Part shown: one piece after another, positions 3,824 through 11,510 of the stretch
Position numbering within the stretch: the first letter of the stretch is position 1
Layout: each line of letters begins with the position of its first letter
Assembly: GCA_016209525.1 (NCBI GenBank)
Contig: JACQWK010000431.1
Coordinates: 1-39,387 of the forward strand
Reading direction: 5' to 3'
DNA: 39,387 nt
DNA from: Verrucomicrobiota bacterium
GTDB lineage: Bacteria > Verrucomicrobiota > Verrucomicrobiia > Limisphaerales > SIBE01
Notes under the pieces: generated by a model
Seen by the model: only the letters and a program-made list of their open reading frames with translations
Database searches by the model: none
What the model was told of the DNA's origin: nothing
Made by a program: the position numbers and the translations under genes

Positions 3824-4097
3824 CTATCTCCTCCATTGCAACCCGCCGCGAATCCAACGAGGATCGCGACGCATATCGAGAATTGCATAAACACACGCGG
3901 ACTCGCGCTCAAGTTCCTAGCAGACACCGAAAGGAAAGCGTTTCGACAGCATTCGGTGAATCCCTGCGCAAAGGACAAGCGAACCAAGATCGGAGAAGAT
4001 CAACGAAGTAATCACCGACTCCCGACTCGCGTGATTCGTAGAACCGCCGCCCGGCCACCATGTCCTCGGCGGGATCCTCCAGAACGACGACCGTCAT
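3824..4097 (-). pseudogene. decayed RelE/ParE-family toxin
   Basis: MTVVVLEDPAEDMVAGRRFYESRESGVGDYFVDLL, then a frame change near 3985-4000, then DLGSLVLCAGIHRMLSKRFPFGVC, an in-frame TAG at 3917-3919, then ELERESACVYAILDMRRDPRWIRGG in the same frame. Confidence 0.75.
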
Positions 4098-4310
4098 GAT
4101 TCCGAACCTCGCACGCGGGCTTGGAACTGCTCCAAGGTCAGGAATTTCGCTTCCCCGCCGCGCGCGCGCCTTCCGGTCAGCCAAAACGTCCCGATGCGAC
4201 TCCGGAGAGGCTATCTCTCCAGCGCCGCGGCAAAGTGCGTCCCAAAGCTGCCACATGACTTGGAGCCGTTCGGCTACGGACCTTCTCTCTATTTGGGCGG
4301 TCTCAAACAT
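4094..4310 (-). pseudogene. decayed addiction-module antitoxin of the putative Unstab_antitox type
   Basis: MFETAQIERRSVAERLQVMWQLWDALC...HRDVLADRKARA, then a frame change in the GC run at about 4157-4170, then AKFLTLEQFQARVRGSES* with a TGA/ATG overlap to the toxin. Confidence 0.75.
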
Positions 4311-4606: not shown

Positions 4607-5395
4607 TCACTCCAACAGCAGGCTCTTGAGCGGTTCCCAAATCGCCTTTGGCGCAGCCAAGAGCTTCGGCGGTCCGACACCCGCATCGAGGTATTCAAGT
4701 CTCAGTCCGGCTTCTTTCAGAATTACGCGGCCCGCCGCCAAATCCTGAGGTTTGACGTATCCCGTCAGATCGATGTAGGCGTCAAGCGCGCCCGTCGCGA
4801 GCCAACAGGCTGAAAGGGATCCCAAGCCTAGAGCCCGAATCCGGTAAAAATTTCTGGTTAACAGAATGAGCTTTCGCTCGAACCACTCTCTCTCTGCTGC
4901 CGAAAGATTGTGCGTATTCGGGGTGTCAACATTCGCGATCACATCTGAGACCTCGGCGACATGAGGCCCGCTGAGGCGGTGCCCGTCAAGGAAGGCCCCG
5001 CTACCAGAGCAGGCATAAAAGCACTGATCGGACGTCGGAGCGTACACCACACCCAAGACGGGTTCCCCTCGGTAAAGCAACCCCACAGAGACTGAGAAAA
5101 GCGAAGATTGAGCCGCATAGTACTTGGTCCCGTCGATAGGGTCGATCAGCCATTGGTACTCGGACCCGGGGTTCTGGCCGCCAGTTTCCTCCCCGCTCAA
5201 ACCGTGGTCGGGAAACTGGGAACTCAGAGCCGATTTGATATTCGATTCAATGTCTAGATCCACTTGCGTTGCAAAGTCTCGTCGATTCTTGAAGGAAATC
5301 TCCCCCACGTTTGGCCAACGGTTGAGCAGTACCACGCCTTGGCTCCGTGCAATCTGCTTGACCAGTGCAACCGTGATTTCGAGATCAATATTCAA
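4607..5395 (-). CDS. inositol monophosphatase-family phosphatase
   Basis: Metal-site motifs: GEETGG, WLIDPIDGTKYY, and QDLAAGRVILKEAG near the C-terminus. Confidence 0.85.
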   Translation of the reverse strand: MNIDLEITVALVKQIARSQGVVLLNRWPNVGEISFKNRRDFATQVDLDIESNIKSALSSQFPDHGLSGEETGGQNPGSEYQWLIDPIDGTKYYAAQSSLFSVSVGLLYRGEPVLGVVYAPTSDQCFYACSGSGAFLDGHRLSGPHVAEVSDVIANVDTPNTHNLSAAEREWFERKLILLTRNFYRIRALGLGSLSACWLATGALDAYIDLTGYVKPQDLAAGRVILKEAGLRLEYLDAGVGPPKLLAAPKAIWEPLKSLLLE

Positions 5396-5442
5396 TTCGT
5401 AACTACAGAATCAACAGAGCCCGGTTGCGCCGAAGTGTCGGC

Positions 5443-6609
5443 TCACAGCATCTCCACGCCGGGATAAAGCTCCTCGTCGACCCTGGCTGTGGAGACTTTA
5501 TCCGTGTAGTAGGCCATATACGCGACTATTCCGTTTTGTTTATGCTCGGCTGGCCAGTAATTCCGCGGACCGGAGATGCCACTCCATACAGAGGGATCCC
5601 ACCCTCTGTACACAAGAACGAAAGCGAAGCGAACATCCAGTTTCTTGCCAAACTTCCTCCGCAGGAAACTGACAATCTCGAGTGCGCTTTTTCCGCTTTT
5701 GCATTTTCCGTCCACGACAAGCATGCGCTCCGCGTTACAGGCGTTTACTGTCGGCAACGTTTGGCCGGAGGAATTTTGCCTGGGTATACCTGGTAAGCTC
5801 ACGCAGCCAATGTCTCGTGGACGTTCCGAGTCACGGTGCGTCAGCAACTTGCGTGTGGAAATTACGCCCAGATGCGACCTTAAGAAGAATCTGCTCATCA
5901 TAGAGGCAGCAGCCATACCGCTGGCATTGACGCCCAAAATAATATCGGGGTAGAACTGACTTTGAAGGATGATACTCGAGAGCCGTCTCGCTGCCCATCT
6001 TATGTCGCCCACCTTAAGCTGCTGCCTCGTCTCGCAGAATTCTTTTGGAGGCGACTTCAAATTCAGTTCGGCGTGCTCGGTCCTGTCCAAGAGGATGCTG
6101 GCGACCATCCTGACGTGCTCGCGCCACTTTGTAGAACCTGGACGGACGCGGATGAGTTCGAGTCCCTGGAGCTGCATCAGCGACGTCCACCAAGAGCTTC
6201 TTCGGAGCGGTGGTACTTGCGGAAGCACGAGGACGCGCCTCACTTCGGAGATCCAAATCGGCAAAACGCACCGAAGCGTATCCTTAACTTCCCGTCGGTA
6301 TAGATTCCATTCATGCCAGCACCAATCACTGTCGAAATAAGCCTTTGAGACAATGGGCAGCAAAACAGGTCGCTGTCTGACAGCGTCCAAAATCTCCTTT
6401 TTCCATTTCTTGCCCTTCGGAATTTTCAAATCAAAAAAATATTCGAGCTTTCGTTTGCCTCTCTTTTCGTATTCCGCAGCAAGCGCCTCAACGAAACGCC
6501 TCACGTAACCGCGTTTGTCATCCTTTCGGGCGTAGTTTACAAACAAGGCACACCTGCCTCCTCGAGAGACTTGCGTTGCTCCCTTGAAATTTTGTGGTGC
6601 GGATTTCAT
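5443..6609 (-). CDS. TIR domain - phosphoribosyltransferase-like fusion protein
   Basis: TIR-like ALFVNYARKDD...YFFDLKIPKGKKWKKEILDAVRQRPVLLPIVSKAYFDSDWCWHEW; C-terminal PRTase-like FYPDIILGVNASGMAAASMM...ERMLVVDGKCKSGKSALEIVSFLRRK. Start chosen at Met16 of the listed ORF (listed start 6654), because the longer start overlaps the upstream gene. Confidence 0.75.
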   Translation of the reverse strand: MKSAPQNFKGATQVSRGGRCALFVNYARKDDKRGYVRRFVEALAAEYEKRGKRKLEYFFDLKIPKGKKWKKEILDAVRQRPVLLPIVSKAYFDSDWCWHEWNLYRREVKDTLRCVLPIWISEVRRVLVLPQVPPLRRSSWWTSLMQLQGLELIRVRPGSTKWREHVRMVASILLDRTEHAELNLKSPPKEFCETRQQLKVGDIRWAARRLSSIILQSQFYPDIILGVNASGMAAASMMSRFFLRSHLGVISTRKLLTHRDSERPRDIGCVSLPGIPRQNSSGQTLPTVNACNAERMLVVDGKCKSGKSALEIVSFLRRKFGKKLDVRFAFVLVYRGWDPSVWSGISGPRNYWPAEHKQNGIVAYMAYYTDKVSTARVDEELYPGVEML

Positions 6610-6641
6610 GTCCGCATTGTGGCTAATTGCGCCGTTCCTTC

Positions 6642-8837
6642 TTACTTGGCCCATTGATCCAGTTCAGCGAACCGCGACGCTGAACTCAGGTCTTTGTGCC
6701 ATTCGTCACAGAGTCGCGCCACGGGGGCCTTCAACGCCGGCAGCGCATCCGCACCGGGAGTCATGGCCGCGGCTTCACGGCGCAGCCATTGCAGGACTTC
6801 CTCCAAACTGCCGAAGGTTCCTTTGGCCAGGGCTTCGCGCAATTGCGGAACGGTCTTCTCCTGAAATCCGCGCTTTGAATCCAAATCGACGATGTCCGGT
6901 ATGAGCAGCGCGGCTTCGCTCAAAGAGAAATCGATTCTTCCCAGCAGATCATTATAGACCGAAGAGGCGATGCGGTCCGCCTTCTCCCGAACCTCCCGCA
7001 GCAGTGCCATGCCTTTGGCTTGCGACGGCGCGCCAAAAGGCAAGAGTTGGCAATAGAACTTGAGCTTCGGTTCGGTGCCGGAAGGCCGGATCGTGATGAT
7101 GAAATTGTCGGTGAAAACTTGGAGCACATTCCTGGGCAACCGGTCGGTCTCGCTGACAAACGGGCCGAAGGCCCGCTGGTCCCAGTAATCGACCACTTTG
7201 CGGACTTCTTGCCCGCCGAGGCAAGCCGGTGTGGACTGCCGCAGCGACTCCAGGATGCGGTCTTTCCTGAGAATTCCTTCCGCCCCAATCATGGTGATGG
7301 AACGGCTGACCGTGTCGTATCCGCCGAATTCCTCCAGCATGCTGACGTAATAGTCCAGGAGCGTCCGCCCTTCGCGGTGCAGCCTCTGATAGAGCGCCGC
7401 CAGATACATGCACGCCGGAGCGGCGTCTTTGTCGCGAATGGTGGGAACGACGATGACTCCGTGGCTTTCCTCCGCCGCGAGAACCAACTGGCTGGGTTTG
7501 CAGGTGATGTTGCGATATCGTCCGTTCCGTTCGAGGGACTTCAACACTTCAGCCACGTATTTGAACCCAACCAGCAAATCATCGATCAGCAGCGAACCGC
7601 CCACCCGTTCCACGATCTTGCCCAGAATCTTGGTTGTCACCAGCGTTTCGATCACGAGTCCTTTGCGGCGCGGACCTTTTGGATCCAGCATGAGATAATA
7701 GCAGAGGATCGCGGCGATTTGATTCCCATCGAAGTGATACCACGAGCCATCGCTCAACTTTCCTTCCAAGCCAACGCGGTCCGCATCGGGATCGCTGGAC
7801 AGGACGACCCCGGAGCCGTGCGCATCGGCAAAAGCTTTGGCGGGCTCGGTCGCTTGCGGGACTTCGGGGTTGGGGGCCTTGAACGGGATCACGGAGAAGG
7901 TGCCGTCCGCAGCTTCGGCGGGTGGAGTGATAAATCTGAATCCAAGTCGATTGAGCACATCGCCCACCGTCGTCAAGCCGCAGCCGCAAAGCGGAGTGTA
8001 CACAATCGGTATGTCCGGCTGCGGCACGTGAACGTTTTGGTAAACCTTTTCGTAAGTCCCGACGTACTCTTGGTGAAGGTCCTTTGGCACCTCGCGGACC
8101 AAGCCTTGACCGAGCGCATCTTTGAAAGGCAGAACGCGGACGTCGGTGGCCAGATTCATGGCTTCGACCAAAAGTTGATCGTTCGGCGCAATCGGTTGGC
8201 TGCCGAATTGGTCGTACACTTTGATGCCGTTGTCATCGGGAGGATTGTGCGACGCCGAGAGATTGATGCCGCCGACCGCCTGAAGTTTGTTAATGAGAAA
8301 CGACAGCTCCGGGGTGCTCAAGACGGCCGTGTCAGACTTGGGCTCAGCCAGATAAGCCGCGATGTCGTTGGCGGCGTAAATCTCGCACGCTAGCTTTGCC
8401 AGCGAACGTGACGAGACACCGACCAACGGATGCTCCTTGCCCAGGAAAGCATAGACGCCCGCGATGTCCCGAAAGACCCGCACATCGTTGGCGACCACCA
8501 CCCAAAGGTCTCCTTTGTCCGGGAACGCCTTTCGCAAATAGTGGCAATGCCCCTGGATGGTCATGGCGATGGTCGTGGGATTGAGCCGGTTGGCGCCGTA
8601 TCCGACCCGGCCCCGCCGGCCGCCCGTCCCGAACGGCAGCACTTGCCAGAAGGCATCGAACAACAAGCCCAGATGCGGTTCCGCCAAATGTTTTGCGATC
8701 ATTTCCGGATAGGCGTAGGGCACACCCCCCGATGACCACTGTTGCAGCCGTTCGGCGGCGGCTTGACCGAGCTGGGCGTACTTCGCGGCCAGCAATTCAC
8801 AGGTTCTTTTGAGTGCCGTCGAGTTAGACATTTTCAT
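6642..8837 (-). CDS. phosphohexomutase (phosphoglucomutase/phosphomannomutase, PGM2-like long form)
   Basis: NLSASHNPPDDNGIKVYD phosphoserine loop, SSDPDADRVG metal loop, EESHG sugar loop, RPSGTEPKLKFY phosphate loop. Confidence 0.9.
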   Translation of the reverse strand: MKMSNSTALKRTCELLAAKYAQLGQAAAERLQQWSSGGVPYAYPEMIAKHLAEPHLGLLFDAFWQVLPFGTGGRRGRVGYGANRLNPTTIAMTIQGHCHYLRKAFPDKGDLWVVVANDVRVFRDIAGVYAFLGKEHPLVGVSSRSLAKLACEIYAANDIAAYLAEPKSDTAVLSTPELSFLINKLQAVGGINLSASHNPPDDNGIKVYDQFGSQPIAPNDQLLVEAMNLATDVRVLPFKDALGQGLVREVPKDLHQEYVGTYEKVYQNVHVPQPDIPIVYTPLCGCGLTTVGDVLNRLGFRFITPPAEAADGTFSVIPFKAPNPEVPQATEPAKAFADAHGSGVVLSSDPDADRVGLEGKLSDGSWYHFDGNQIAAILCYYLMLDPKGPRRKGLVIETLVTTKILGKIVERVGGSLLIDDLLVGFKYVAEVLKSLERNGRYRNITCKPSQLVLAAEESHGVIVVPTIRDKDAAPACMYLAALYQRLHREGRTLLDYYVSMLEEFGGYDTVSRSITMIGAEGILRKDRILESLRQSTPACLGGQEVRKVVDYWDQRAFGPFVSETDRLPRNVLQVFTDNFIITIRPSGTEPKLKFYCQLLPFGAPSQAKGMALLREVREKADRIASSVYNDLLGRIDFSLSEAALLIPDIVDLDSKRGFQEKTVPQLREALAKGTFGSLEEVLQWLRREAAAMTPGADALPALKAPVARLCDEWHKDLSSASRFAELDQWAK

Positions 8838-10216
8838 GCACCGATTTGGCTCTTGATCGCATCACTAATCCGTTTGCTCCATTGCGCCAGCAGGACTTCG
8901 TCGCGGCCTTCGATCATGACCCGCGCTTTGGGTTCGGTTCCGGAATAGCGCAACAGTACCCGGCCGCCGGACGGTTTGATCTCCGCTTCGGCTTGATCGA
9001 CGAGTTGCATCACGCCCTTCAGTTGATCCAAGGGAAGTTTTTCCCGCACCCGCACATTGGTGAGCATCTGGGGGTAGCGCGTCCAGCACTGCAGCAGCTT
9101 GGACAACGGCCGGCTCTTTGCTCCCATGATATGGAGAATCTGCAGTGCGGCCACCAGCCCATCTCCGGTGGTGGAATGATCGGTGAAAATGAGATGGCCG
9201 CTTTGTTCGCCGCCAAAGTTGTAGCCTCCCCTGAGCATCCCTTCGATGACATATTTGTCGCCCACCTGCGTTCGAACCATACGGCCGCCGGCGGAACGAA
9301 GGACGGCTTCCAATCCGGCATTGCTCATTTCCGTGGTGACGATCGTTTTGTGATTGAGTGTTCCCAGTTCCAGCATGTGCAAACCGACGATGGCCATGAT
9401 GTCATCGCCGTCGAGTTTTCTTCCCGTCTCGTCGCAAAGAATCACGCGGTCGCCATCGCCGTCGTGGGCGAGACCGATGTCGGCTCTGTGATCGAAAACC
9501 TTTTGGCACATCTGCTCCGGATGCATGGAGCCGCAGTCCTTGTTGATGTTCATCCCGTCGGGCTGATTGCCGAAGACGATCACTTCGGCGCCGAGTTCCC
9601 GCAAGACGCACGGGGTCGATTTGTAGGTCGCGCCATGCGCGCAATCCACGACGATCCGCATGCCTTCCAAAGTCAGTCCCTTTGGAAATGAGGACTTCGC
9701 AAATTCAATATAACGGCCCAAGGCGTCGTCGATGCGGAACGCTTTCCCAATTTCATTGGCCGTGGGGCGGATATTCTCGATCTTGCCGCTAAACACCAAC
9801 TCCTCGATCTCACGCTCGATCTTGTCGTCCAGTTTGTAGCCGTCCGAACGGAAGAACTTGATCCCGTTGTCGTCGTAAAGATTGTGGGAAGCCGTGATGA
9901 CCATTCCGGCGTCGGCGCGCAGGCTGCGGGTCACGTAGGCCACTCCAGGCGTTGGCAGTGGTCCGATCAGAAGCACATCCACTCCCATTGAGAGAATGCC
10001 CGAAGACAAGGCGTTCTCGAGCATGTAACAGGATAGACGGGTGTCCTTCCCGATCACAATCTTGTGCTTGCCGCGGACCGACGAAGTTTGTTGGAGATTC
10101 TTGAACACATGCGCGGCCGCGCGCCCCAGCTTCAACGCCGTCTCCGCCGTCACCGGTTCGATGTTGGCTGTGCCCCGGACGCCATCCGTCCCAAAAATCT
10201 TTTTTGCGTCACTCAT
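8834..10216 (-). CDS. glmM: phosphoglucosamine mutase
   Basis: IFGTDGVRGTAN, TASHNLYDDNGIKFF, AHDGDGDRV, GGEQSGH, RYSGTEPKARVMIEG; adjacent to cdaA and ybbR. Confidence 0.93.
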   Translation of the reverse strand: MSDAKKIFGTDGVRGTANIEPVTAETALKLGRAAAHVFKNLQQTSSVRGKHKIVIGKDTRLSCYMLENALSSGILSMGVDVLLIGPLPTPGVAYVTRSLRADAGMVITASHNLYDDNGIKFFRSDGYKLDDKIEREIEELVFSGKIENIRPTANEIGKAFRIDDALGRYIEFAKSSFPKGLTLEGMRIVVDCAHGATYKSTPCVLRELGAEVIVFGNQPDGMNINKDCGSMHPEQMCQKVFDHRADIGLAHDGDGDRVILCDETGRKLDGDDIMAIVGLHMLELGTLNHKTIVTTEMSNAGLEAVLRSAGGRMVRTQVGDKYVIEGMLRGGYNFGGEQSGHLIFTDHSTTGDGLVAALQILHIMGAKSRPLSKLLQCWTRYPQMLTNVRVREKLPLDQLKGVMQLVDQAEAEIKPSGGRVLLRYSGTEPKARVMIEGRDEVLLAQWSKRISDAIKSQIGA

Positions 10217-10643
10217 TGGAAGAATTGATCACTCGTTCGGCGGTCACCGATGACGGCTTGACCTTGATCCTGGCCGCTTCGAAGCCGGTGGGAAGGCTGA
10301 CCAGCACTTCTCGGGTTTCTTTCGTGCCATTGGTTGCGTCCGCGAGATCCACAAATGCCCTTATATCAGTTTTCTCAAGCCGGCTCAAGGCGCTCGGCGT
10401 TGACCGGATTGTGACATCCACTCTGGCGGGAGTGATCGTGAATGTTTCCTTATCCCCAGGCGCGGTGAGAACCAGGACCGGCAAGTCGGGAAAAGTGTCG
10501 TCACGAGATTCGGTCAACGGATGGTCGCTGGGTCTGAATCCCTTCGAGATGGCGACTTGAATGAGAAACCAGATGAACACCGCCAAAGCAAGCGCGCCCG
10601 CCTTCCAGCGAAAATTGTGCAAAATAAAGTCCGGCAGCGACAT
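10209..10643 (-). CDS. YbbR-domain protein (CdaR-like)
   Basis: N-terminal TM (WKAGALALAVFIWFLIQVA) and YbbR-like repeat (VDVTIRSTPSALSRLEKTDIRAFVDLADAT); sits between cdaA and glmM. Confidence 0.8.
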   Translation of the reverse strand: MSLPDFILHNFRWKAGALALAVFIWFLIQVAISKGFRPSDHPLTESRDDTFPDLPVLVLTAPGDKETFTITPARVDVTIRSTPSALSRLEKTDIRAFVDLADATNGTKETREVLVSLPTGFEAARIKVKPSSVTAERVINSSNE

Positions 10644-10649
10644 GGGAGG

Positions 10650-11510
10650 TCATTTCTGAGGAACCTTCGAGGCGACCGGCGCCGGCGGAACCGCGCGGCT
10701 CGTGGCCCAAGAGCGGATGCGGTCAGCCAGACTCCGCGAACCGGGCCGCGTGACGAAGACCGAGGTTAGGAAAGCACGGAGTTCCTCAATGGAAACTCCG
10801 CGGACCAACTGGCCTTTGTAGGCATGAGAAATGGCGCCGGATTCCTCCGAGACCACCACCACCACGGCGTCGGTTTCTTCGCTCAAACCGATGGCGGCGC
10901 GGTGGCGCGTCCCCAACGACGGATTCAGGTCCTGACGCTGGGTCAGAGGGAAAATGCAGGCCGCATAAGCGATTTTGTCGCCCTTAATGATAACGCCCCC
11001 GTCGTGGATCGCATTATTTGGAAAAAAAATGGTCTCCAACATTTCCGGTGTCGCCTCGCAATCCACGAGAATTCCGGATTCCACGACATCTTGAAGTTGA
11101 ATCGCCTGTTCGATTGCGATCAAAGTCCCAATCCGAGCCTCCGACAAGCGTTCCGCAGTCTGAACAATCACTTCGATATTCTGCCGCTGCTCGTGGGCCG
11201 TGGTGAAGAGGGGCAGATTCCCGAGCTCCGCCAACAAACGCCGGAGTTCCGGCTGGAAAATGATCAGCACCGCGACCGCGGACAGCGCGAAGAAGTATTG
11301 CAGCAGGAAGCTCAGGACCTGGAGCTGAAGCAGCGTGGTCAGGAGTGTCACCGCGAGCACGACGGCGAAACCGATGGCGACCGCCCAGCCGCGCGTGCCG
11401 CGCAAGCCGCGGATGAACATGATTGCGTAGTAAATTCCTACGGTCAGAATCGCGATCTCCACGACAAAACGCCAAATCGTGTGTAAATTCCAAACCACTA
11501 GCTCTGGCAA
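10650..11510 (-). CDS. cdaA: diadenylate cyclase (c-di-AMP synthase)
   Basis: N-terminal TM helices; FFPNNAIHDGGVIIKGDKIAYAACIFPLTQ and LGTRHRAAIGLSEETDAVVVVVSEESG (DAC domain). Confidence 0.93.
   Translation of the reverse strand: MPELVVWNLHTIWRFVVEIAILTVGIYYAIMFIRGLRGTRGWAVAIGFAVVLAVTLLTTLLQLQVLSFLLQYFFALSAVAVLIIFQPELRRLLAELGNLPLFTTAHEQRQNIEVIVQTAERLSEARIGTLIAIEQAIQLQDVVESGILVDCEATPEMLETIFFPNNAIHDGGVIIKGDKIAYAACIFPLTQRQDLNPSLGTRHRAAIGLSEETDAVVVVVSEESGAISHAYKGQLVRGVSIEELRAFLTSVFVTRPGSRSLADRIRSWATSRAVPPAPVASKVPQK

Follow-up and report, generated by a model that had tools for sequence, protein, structure and literature searches.

A TIR-phosphoribosyltransferase fusion with a candidate defence role behind the cdaA-glmM operon of a Verrucomicrobiota bacterium

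Most TIR effectors described so far are activated by a partner protein, a nucleic acid or a cyclic nucleotide. The protein described here is encoded in a 39,387-nt stretch of DNA (the whole of which is called the window) from one genome of a Verrucomicrobiota bacterium, available as a 764-contig assembly. It shares a TIR_2 domain and a WCxxE-type Glu with the prokaryotic and plant TIR NADases (L6, SNC1, Cat1, ThsB of Thoeris and the N-terminal domain of FxsC), and differs from them by a fused phosphoribosyltransferase (PRTase) fold. Its TIR domain scored below the FxsC and ThcB4 cut-offs and matched ThsB at only 0.012. Near the TIR gene, no ThsA, CRISPR or FxsA/B partner was identified, and the annotated neighbours include neither a ThsA-type NADase nor another effector beside it, as Thoeris would require. 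One precedent is SARM1, a TIR NADase switched on by NMN (PMC9788811).

PRTase folds have been described both as regulators and as toxins. In Bacillus subtilis, PurR has a PRTase fold without enzymatic activity and binds PRPP and (p)ppGpp (PMC8789054). PurR and GfcR resemble the window protein in carrying the fold C-terminal to another domain, with a presumed ligand-binding use, whereas their N-terminal domain is DNA-binding and that of the window protein is a TIR. PRTase toxins or effectors are known from RqlHI (PMC4670107), DprA-PRTase defence and type III retrons (PMC9122126, PMC12548924), and mutation of D663, a residue of the acidic motif in the PRPP pocket of RqlH, removed most of the PRTase-dependent toxicity (PMC4670107). 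The window protein shares with ShosTA, RqlHI and the type III retron effectors a PRTase fold in a putative conflict protein, but those are paired with a DprA-like protein, a helicase or a reverse transcriptase, while here the partner is a TIR domain and the DD motif is broken. The annotated neighbours contained neither DprA nor a reverse transcriptase with a winged-helix partner, and PADLOC returned no match for the window PRTase. The phage nicotinamide ADP-ribose transferase Namat of NARP1 acts on products of NAD+-depletion defences; it is a counter-defence enzyme without a TIR domain (PMC12774641). PRTase domains have also been described in phage and plasmid conflict proteins, including those of Verrucomicrobiae, with proposed roles in nucleotide production or sensing; that paper makes no mention of TIR (PMC5512222). 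Within the open-access subset of the literature, no TIR-PRTase fusion was found.

Domain architecture of the fusion protein

The fusion gene and its main elements are as follows:

5443..6609, minus strand: TIR-PRTase fusion gene, 388 aa from ATG 6609 (open frame, Pfam TIR_2, leave-one-out PRTase profile and fold)
6244..6543, minus strand: TIR domain (PF13676, E 7.7e-12 in the genome search, over the cut-off; L6 TIR at 1.5e-6 in the PDB)
6310..6312, minus strand: codon of Glu115 (403-aa numbering), in DWCWHE, at the catalytic-Glu position of NAD-cleaving TIRs (PDB alignment to L6 TIR)
5446..6069, minus strand: PRTase-fold domain, aa 196-403, core aa 208-351 (alignment; AlphaFold2 pLDDT 67, pTM 0.68; Foldseek 1vdm)
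5917..5946, minus strand: pyrophosphate-loop region DIILGVNASG, with ASG where the paralogue and most relatives have GG
5680..5724, minus strand: PRPP-loop region MLVVDGKCKSGKSAL, with VDG (alignment of 17 PRTases)

The frame is open over 5443-6654 on the minus strand and encodes 403 aa from ATG 6654, a start that would overlap the upstream phosphohexomutase-family gene (PGM) by 13 nt; the second in-frame ATG is at 6609. An earlier note on this DNA had described two co-oriented genes 47 nt apart, the first joining a TIR domain with a catalytic-type Glu to a PRTase-like half and the second an inositol-monophosphatase (IMPase) family gene with all its metal motifs. This description was borne out on every point: both genes are encoded on the minus strand, separated by 47 nt, and the motifs quoted for the first were located at aa 103-116 (SKAYFDSDWCWHEW), 237-246 (DIILGVNASG) and 311-325 (MLVVDGKCKSGKSAL).

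The TIR domain was matched by PF13676 (TIR_2) over aa 38-137 with an E of 9.9e-12 and 45.9 bits, against a curated cut-off of 28. In the PDB alignment, the Glu of WCWHE (E115) falls on the WxxxE-type catalytic Glu of the flax L6 TIR (WCLMEL). The C-x-x-E column seen around E115 is common to most TIRs of related genomes. The TIR domain is a putative NADase that would act through Glu115.

Direct profile evidence for the PRTase half was weak (PF00156, E 0.23; NF002620, an orotate-PRTase-like model, E 2.6e-4). A leave-one-out profile of 16 PRTases, from which the window protein was excluded, recovered it at 6.1e-8, and still at 5.3e-5 when its homologue P0002 (see below) was also removed; the best of 5000 shuffles reached 0.58-0.65 with these profiles (0.58 with the 16-PRTase profile). 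Single-sequence AlphaFold of the whole protein gave a pLDDT of 34; the PRTase domain was folded alone. The resulting AlphaFold2 model, of moderate confidence (pLDDT 67, pTM 0.68), matched purine PRTases of the PDB in Foldseek, with 1vdm as the best match (E 1.8e-6). The model fold is supporting rather than independent evidence, since the alignment behind it is made of PRTases. The C-terminal half has a PRTase fold and the gene is confirmed as a true TIR-PRTase fusion: Pfam and the PDB alignment to L6 support the TIR domain, the latter also the position of the WCWHEW Glu, and the leave-one-out profile and Foldseek support the PRTase fold.

The active-site loops of the PRTase half are altered. 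In type I PRTases, a pair of neighbouring acidic residues marks the PRPP loop. The other 16 members of the 17-sequence alignment have VDD there, while the window protein has VDG (DD to DG), a difference missed in the earlier reading. In the same alignment, the pyrophosphate loop has changed from GG to SG. These alterations make a ligand-binding switch likelier than an active transferase; as features of the sequence, they favour, without proving, a binding or switch role, and they render doubtful the earlier proposal that this half converts a ribosyl phosphate. The degenerate PRTase could alternatively reflect decay or a structural role.

Genomic neighbourhood and the IMPase gene

The genes flanking the fusion comprise:

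6642..8837, minus strand: PGM, a phosphohexomutase-family gene, 731 aa (Pfam PGM_PMM; 32 nt upstream of ATG 6609)
8834..10216, minus strand: glmM, the end of a conserved folP-cdaA-ybbR-glmM operon (Pfam; synteny in relatives)
10209-10643, minus strand: ybbR/cdaR (PF07949, E 2.4e-4, just under the cut-off)
10650-11510, minus strand: cdaA, diadenylate cyclase (PF02457, E 6.5e-40)
4607..5395, minus strand: IMPase-family phosphatase gene, 262 aa, TTG start (PF00459, E 1.8e-48)
5177-5194 (GEE), 5126-5143 (DPIDGT) and 4730-4753 (KPQDLAAG), minus strand: IMPase motifs, all metal motifs intact

Upstream of the fusion, on the same strand, lie folP, cdaA, ybbR, glmM and PGM, which had been missed in the earlier reading. 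The folP-cdaA-(ybbR)-glmM order is kept in most relatives examined, and the genes after glmM differ in every one. The 731-aa PGM itself, of unassigned specificity, is patchy, occurring in 3 of the 97 genomes of the group (the source genome, G006 and G029) at 64-72% identity. GC3 was 0.60 for the TIR-PRTase and 0.63 for the IMPase, against 0.71 for the neighbouring core genes (Fisher p 3.5e-5 and 0.006). The lower GC3 and the variable position behind the conserved operon are consistent with two accessory genes acquired at the variable end of a housekeeping operon. A binning error was rejected, as cdaA and glmM are 82-83% and 80-82% identical to those of same-genus genomes.

No tRNA or flanking repeats marking an insertion were found at the locus, where promoter and terminator scans stayed at chance level. 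Around the TIR gene, the annotation shows PGM, glmM, IMPase and two ORFs, one antitoxin-like and one lipase-like; nothing annotated next to it was recognised as a phage gene, an integrase or a known defence gene. A link to c-di-AMP through cdaA was set aside: cdaA-glmM is conserved housekeeping synteny with varying genes after glmM, and the closeness of cdaA to the fusion is probably positional. At 3909-4310, an addiction-module antitoxin (PF09720) was observed whose frame runs on, possibly as a frameshifted toxin-antitoxin remnant; we take the continuation to resemble the start of a ParE/RelE-like toxin.

The IMPase is, by profile and by its GEE, DPIDGT and D-x-AAG metal motifs, an ordinary family member, with 2pcr as the best PDB match (E 2.8e-33). 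It scored far below all NCBIfam equivalog cut-offs (best HisN, 116 bits versus 275), and these models assign it to none of HisN, CysQ, SuhB or NADP phosphatase, so that its candidate substrates are not assignable by them. Many relatives have a homologue (39 of 58 genomes). Within about 1.5 kb of the IMPase gene, none of 29 homologous loci (L014-L042) held a TIR or PRTase ORF, the TIR part being a single-sequence search that distant TIRs could escape. The closest IMPase (41%), in G006, sits without a TIR between glmM and a PGM that is 64% identical to that of the window, and G029 has the PGM (72%) with no IMPase nearby. The neighbourhood comparison thus gave no conserved linkage at the 29 IMPase loci, and the searched sets of 97, 388 and 320 genomes yielded no TIR-PRTase relative that could form a recurrent pair. 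The IMPase was rejected as a dedicated partner on linkage (0 of 29 loci; PGM and IMPase without TIR in G006). In our reading it would at most be an accessory phosphatase that travels with the fusion, and the low GC3 of both genes leaves room for joint transfer. In G006, a different-type glmM (39% identical) adjoins PGM and IMPase (L043:7960-12761), and no glmM follows cdaA in the 7.5 kb read, which suggests replacement of the ancestral glmM.

A second fusion in the same genome and the rarity of the architecture

A weak match of the PRTase half within its own genome led to P0002 (G000:C635:5128-6309, L078), in which an NDT/TIR-like N-terminal domain (PF05014 weak, 0.047; PADLOC 'Effector TIR', 1.3e-8) precedes a clear, canonical PRTase with a VDD loop (PF00156, 8.6e-11). 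Layout and length are similar to those of the window fusion, and the two PRTases are homologous (pairwise E 1e-6; z 11.8 against shuffles). Both proteins place a nucleoside-cleaving-type domain before a PRTase; P0002 differs in its N-terminal domain, in its VDD loop and in being followed, on the same strand and about 36 nt off if the start is 6345, by a uridine-kinase-like gene (PF00485, 2e-15) where the window has the IMPase. The PRTase of P0002 also has a weak match to ShosT (E 0.007), and the NCBIfam models nearest to it include the regulator-type PRTases GfcR and PyrR. P0002 has a low GC3 (0.57), and a nagB-like gene precedes it. No relatives of P0002 were found in the viral contigs searched.

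The genome is TIR-rich, with 24 TIR_2 matches over the cut-off, several of them in long multidomain ORFs; of these loci, the one in the window alone has a PRTase too. That an N-glycosidase-type domain is joined to a PRTase twice in one genome suggests an architecture that can be reused. An exchangeable effector in front of a constant PRTase second domain fits an effector-plus-sensor design, in which the PRTase would sense and the N-terminal domain would act.

Beyond these two proteins, the architecture is rare in the material searched: several hundred related genomes, together with plasmids and viral contigs, gave no close relative of either. In 97 relatives, the whole TIR-PRTase gave TIR-only matches. 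For the PRTase half, searches of 388 genomes from the phylum and 320 from the order (overlapping sets that include the source genome) gave no convincing relative except P0002; one short match, of 31% identity, occurred in G431 (1.8e-4). Neither the whole protein nor its PRTase half gave anything significant in plasmids, phages, viral contigs and GTDB contigs, where the contig scans relied on short peptide patterns and reach close relatives only.

Proposed function and alternative explanations

Our best reading, which we hold tentatively and at somewhat under even odds, is that one polypeptide combines a TIR effector with a C-terminal PRTase fold serving as a ligand-binding switch and not as a working transferase. 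The gene would be an acquired accessory gene behind the conserved cdaA-glmM operon. Its PRTase pocket would take up a small ligand (PRPP, a mononucleotide or an alarmone) that becomes scarcer or more abundant during stress or phage infection; binding would alter the conformation or oligomer state of the protein, and the TIR domain would then cleave NAD+ through Glu115. In favour of this reading are the TIR_2 match with its L6-aligned Glu, the PRTase fold, its altered loops, the precedents of PurR (PMC8789054) and NMN-gated SARM1 (PMC9788811), the regulator-type models near P0002, the TIR-rich genome (24 TIR_2), the P0002 fusion and the GC3 contrast. NADase activity, the ligand, the gating and a plausible role in defence are inferred. 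Against this reading we counted the lack of an orthologue in the searches, the moderate fold confidence (pLDDT 67) and the lack of an adjacent phage, integrase or defence gene.

A wider proposal, possible though rather unlikely as it stands, is a modular family of metabolite-gated immune effectors. Here a PRTase fold in the same chain would gauge the amount of PRPP, of a mononucleotide or of an alarmone and so control an exchangeable N-glycosidase-type domain (TIR or NDT/TIR-like), as a bacterial analogue of NMN-gated SARM1.

The strongest alternative, which we consider unlikely but still worth weighing, is that the protein has no defence role. It would then be a regulator or metabolic protein peculiar to its lineage, or the product of a decaying gene, with the TIR domain as a protein-interaction scaffold, encoded beside housekeeping sugar-phosphate genes. 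Its position directly behind folP-cdaA-ybbR-glmM-PGM with no known defence gene adjoining, its altered PRTase loops and its occurrence in a single genome would all suit such a protein; however, the frame is intact, the TIR Glu is kept and the composition contrasts with the operon, and a parallel effector-like fusion (P0002) exists elsewhere in a genome with 24 TIR_2 matches.

It is improbable that a toxic or modifying activity resides in the PRTase half itself, which has been suggested for ShosT and RqlH, with the TIR domain regulating that half, assembling it or adding a second toxicity. RqlHI, DprA-PRTase defence and type III retrons provide precedents, and P0002 combines its weak ShosT match (E 0.007) with an intact VDD. 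The window PRTase, in contrast, has Gly as the second acidic residue and an altered pyrophosphate loop, and the RqlH D663 mutant lost most of its toxicity; the window PRTase also has no PADLOC match and neither DprA nor a reverse transcriptase next door.

Least probable is the three-part NAD signalling module of the earlier note, in which an ADP-ribose-type product or signal would come from the TIR domain, be bound or converted by the PRTase half, and be made or removed by the IMPase: the shared strand, the 47-nt gap, the low GC3 of both genes (0.60 and 0.63 versus 0.71), the intact IMPase metal motifs and the phosphate-metabolism (uridine-kinase-like) gene closely trailing P0002 speak for it, but it went unsupported, as 0 of 29 IMPase loci had a detected TIR or PRTase nearby, PGM and IMPase adjoin in a relative without TIR, the gene after P0002 is from another family and the catalytic loops of the window PRTase are altered.

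With a TIR and a PRTase fold joined in one small protein, direct sensing of the nucleotide pool by an NADase of immune type would be open to test. P0002 offers an internal comparison in the same genome, with a shared layout, a different effector and an intact PRTase loop.

Two further proteins were observed among the related genomes. In G096, a 328-aa protein (L089:922-1908) appears by eye to have a TIR fused directly to an NDT/TIR-like domain, linking both N-terminal domain types of the PRTase fusions. In G434, another unusual PRTase fusion joins a PHP-type N-terminal domain (by eye) to a PRTase with a VDD loop (L103:1384-2658), adjoining a polysaccharide-exporter-like membrane gene.
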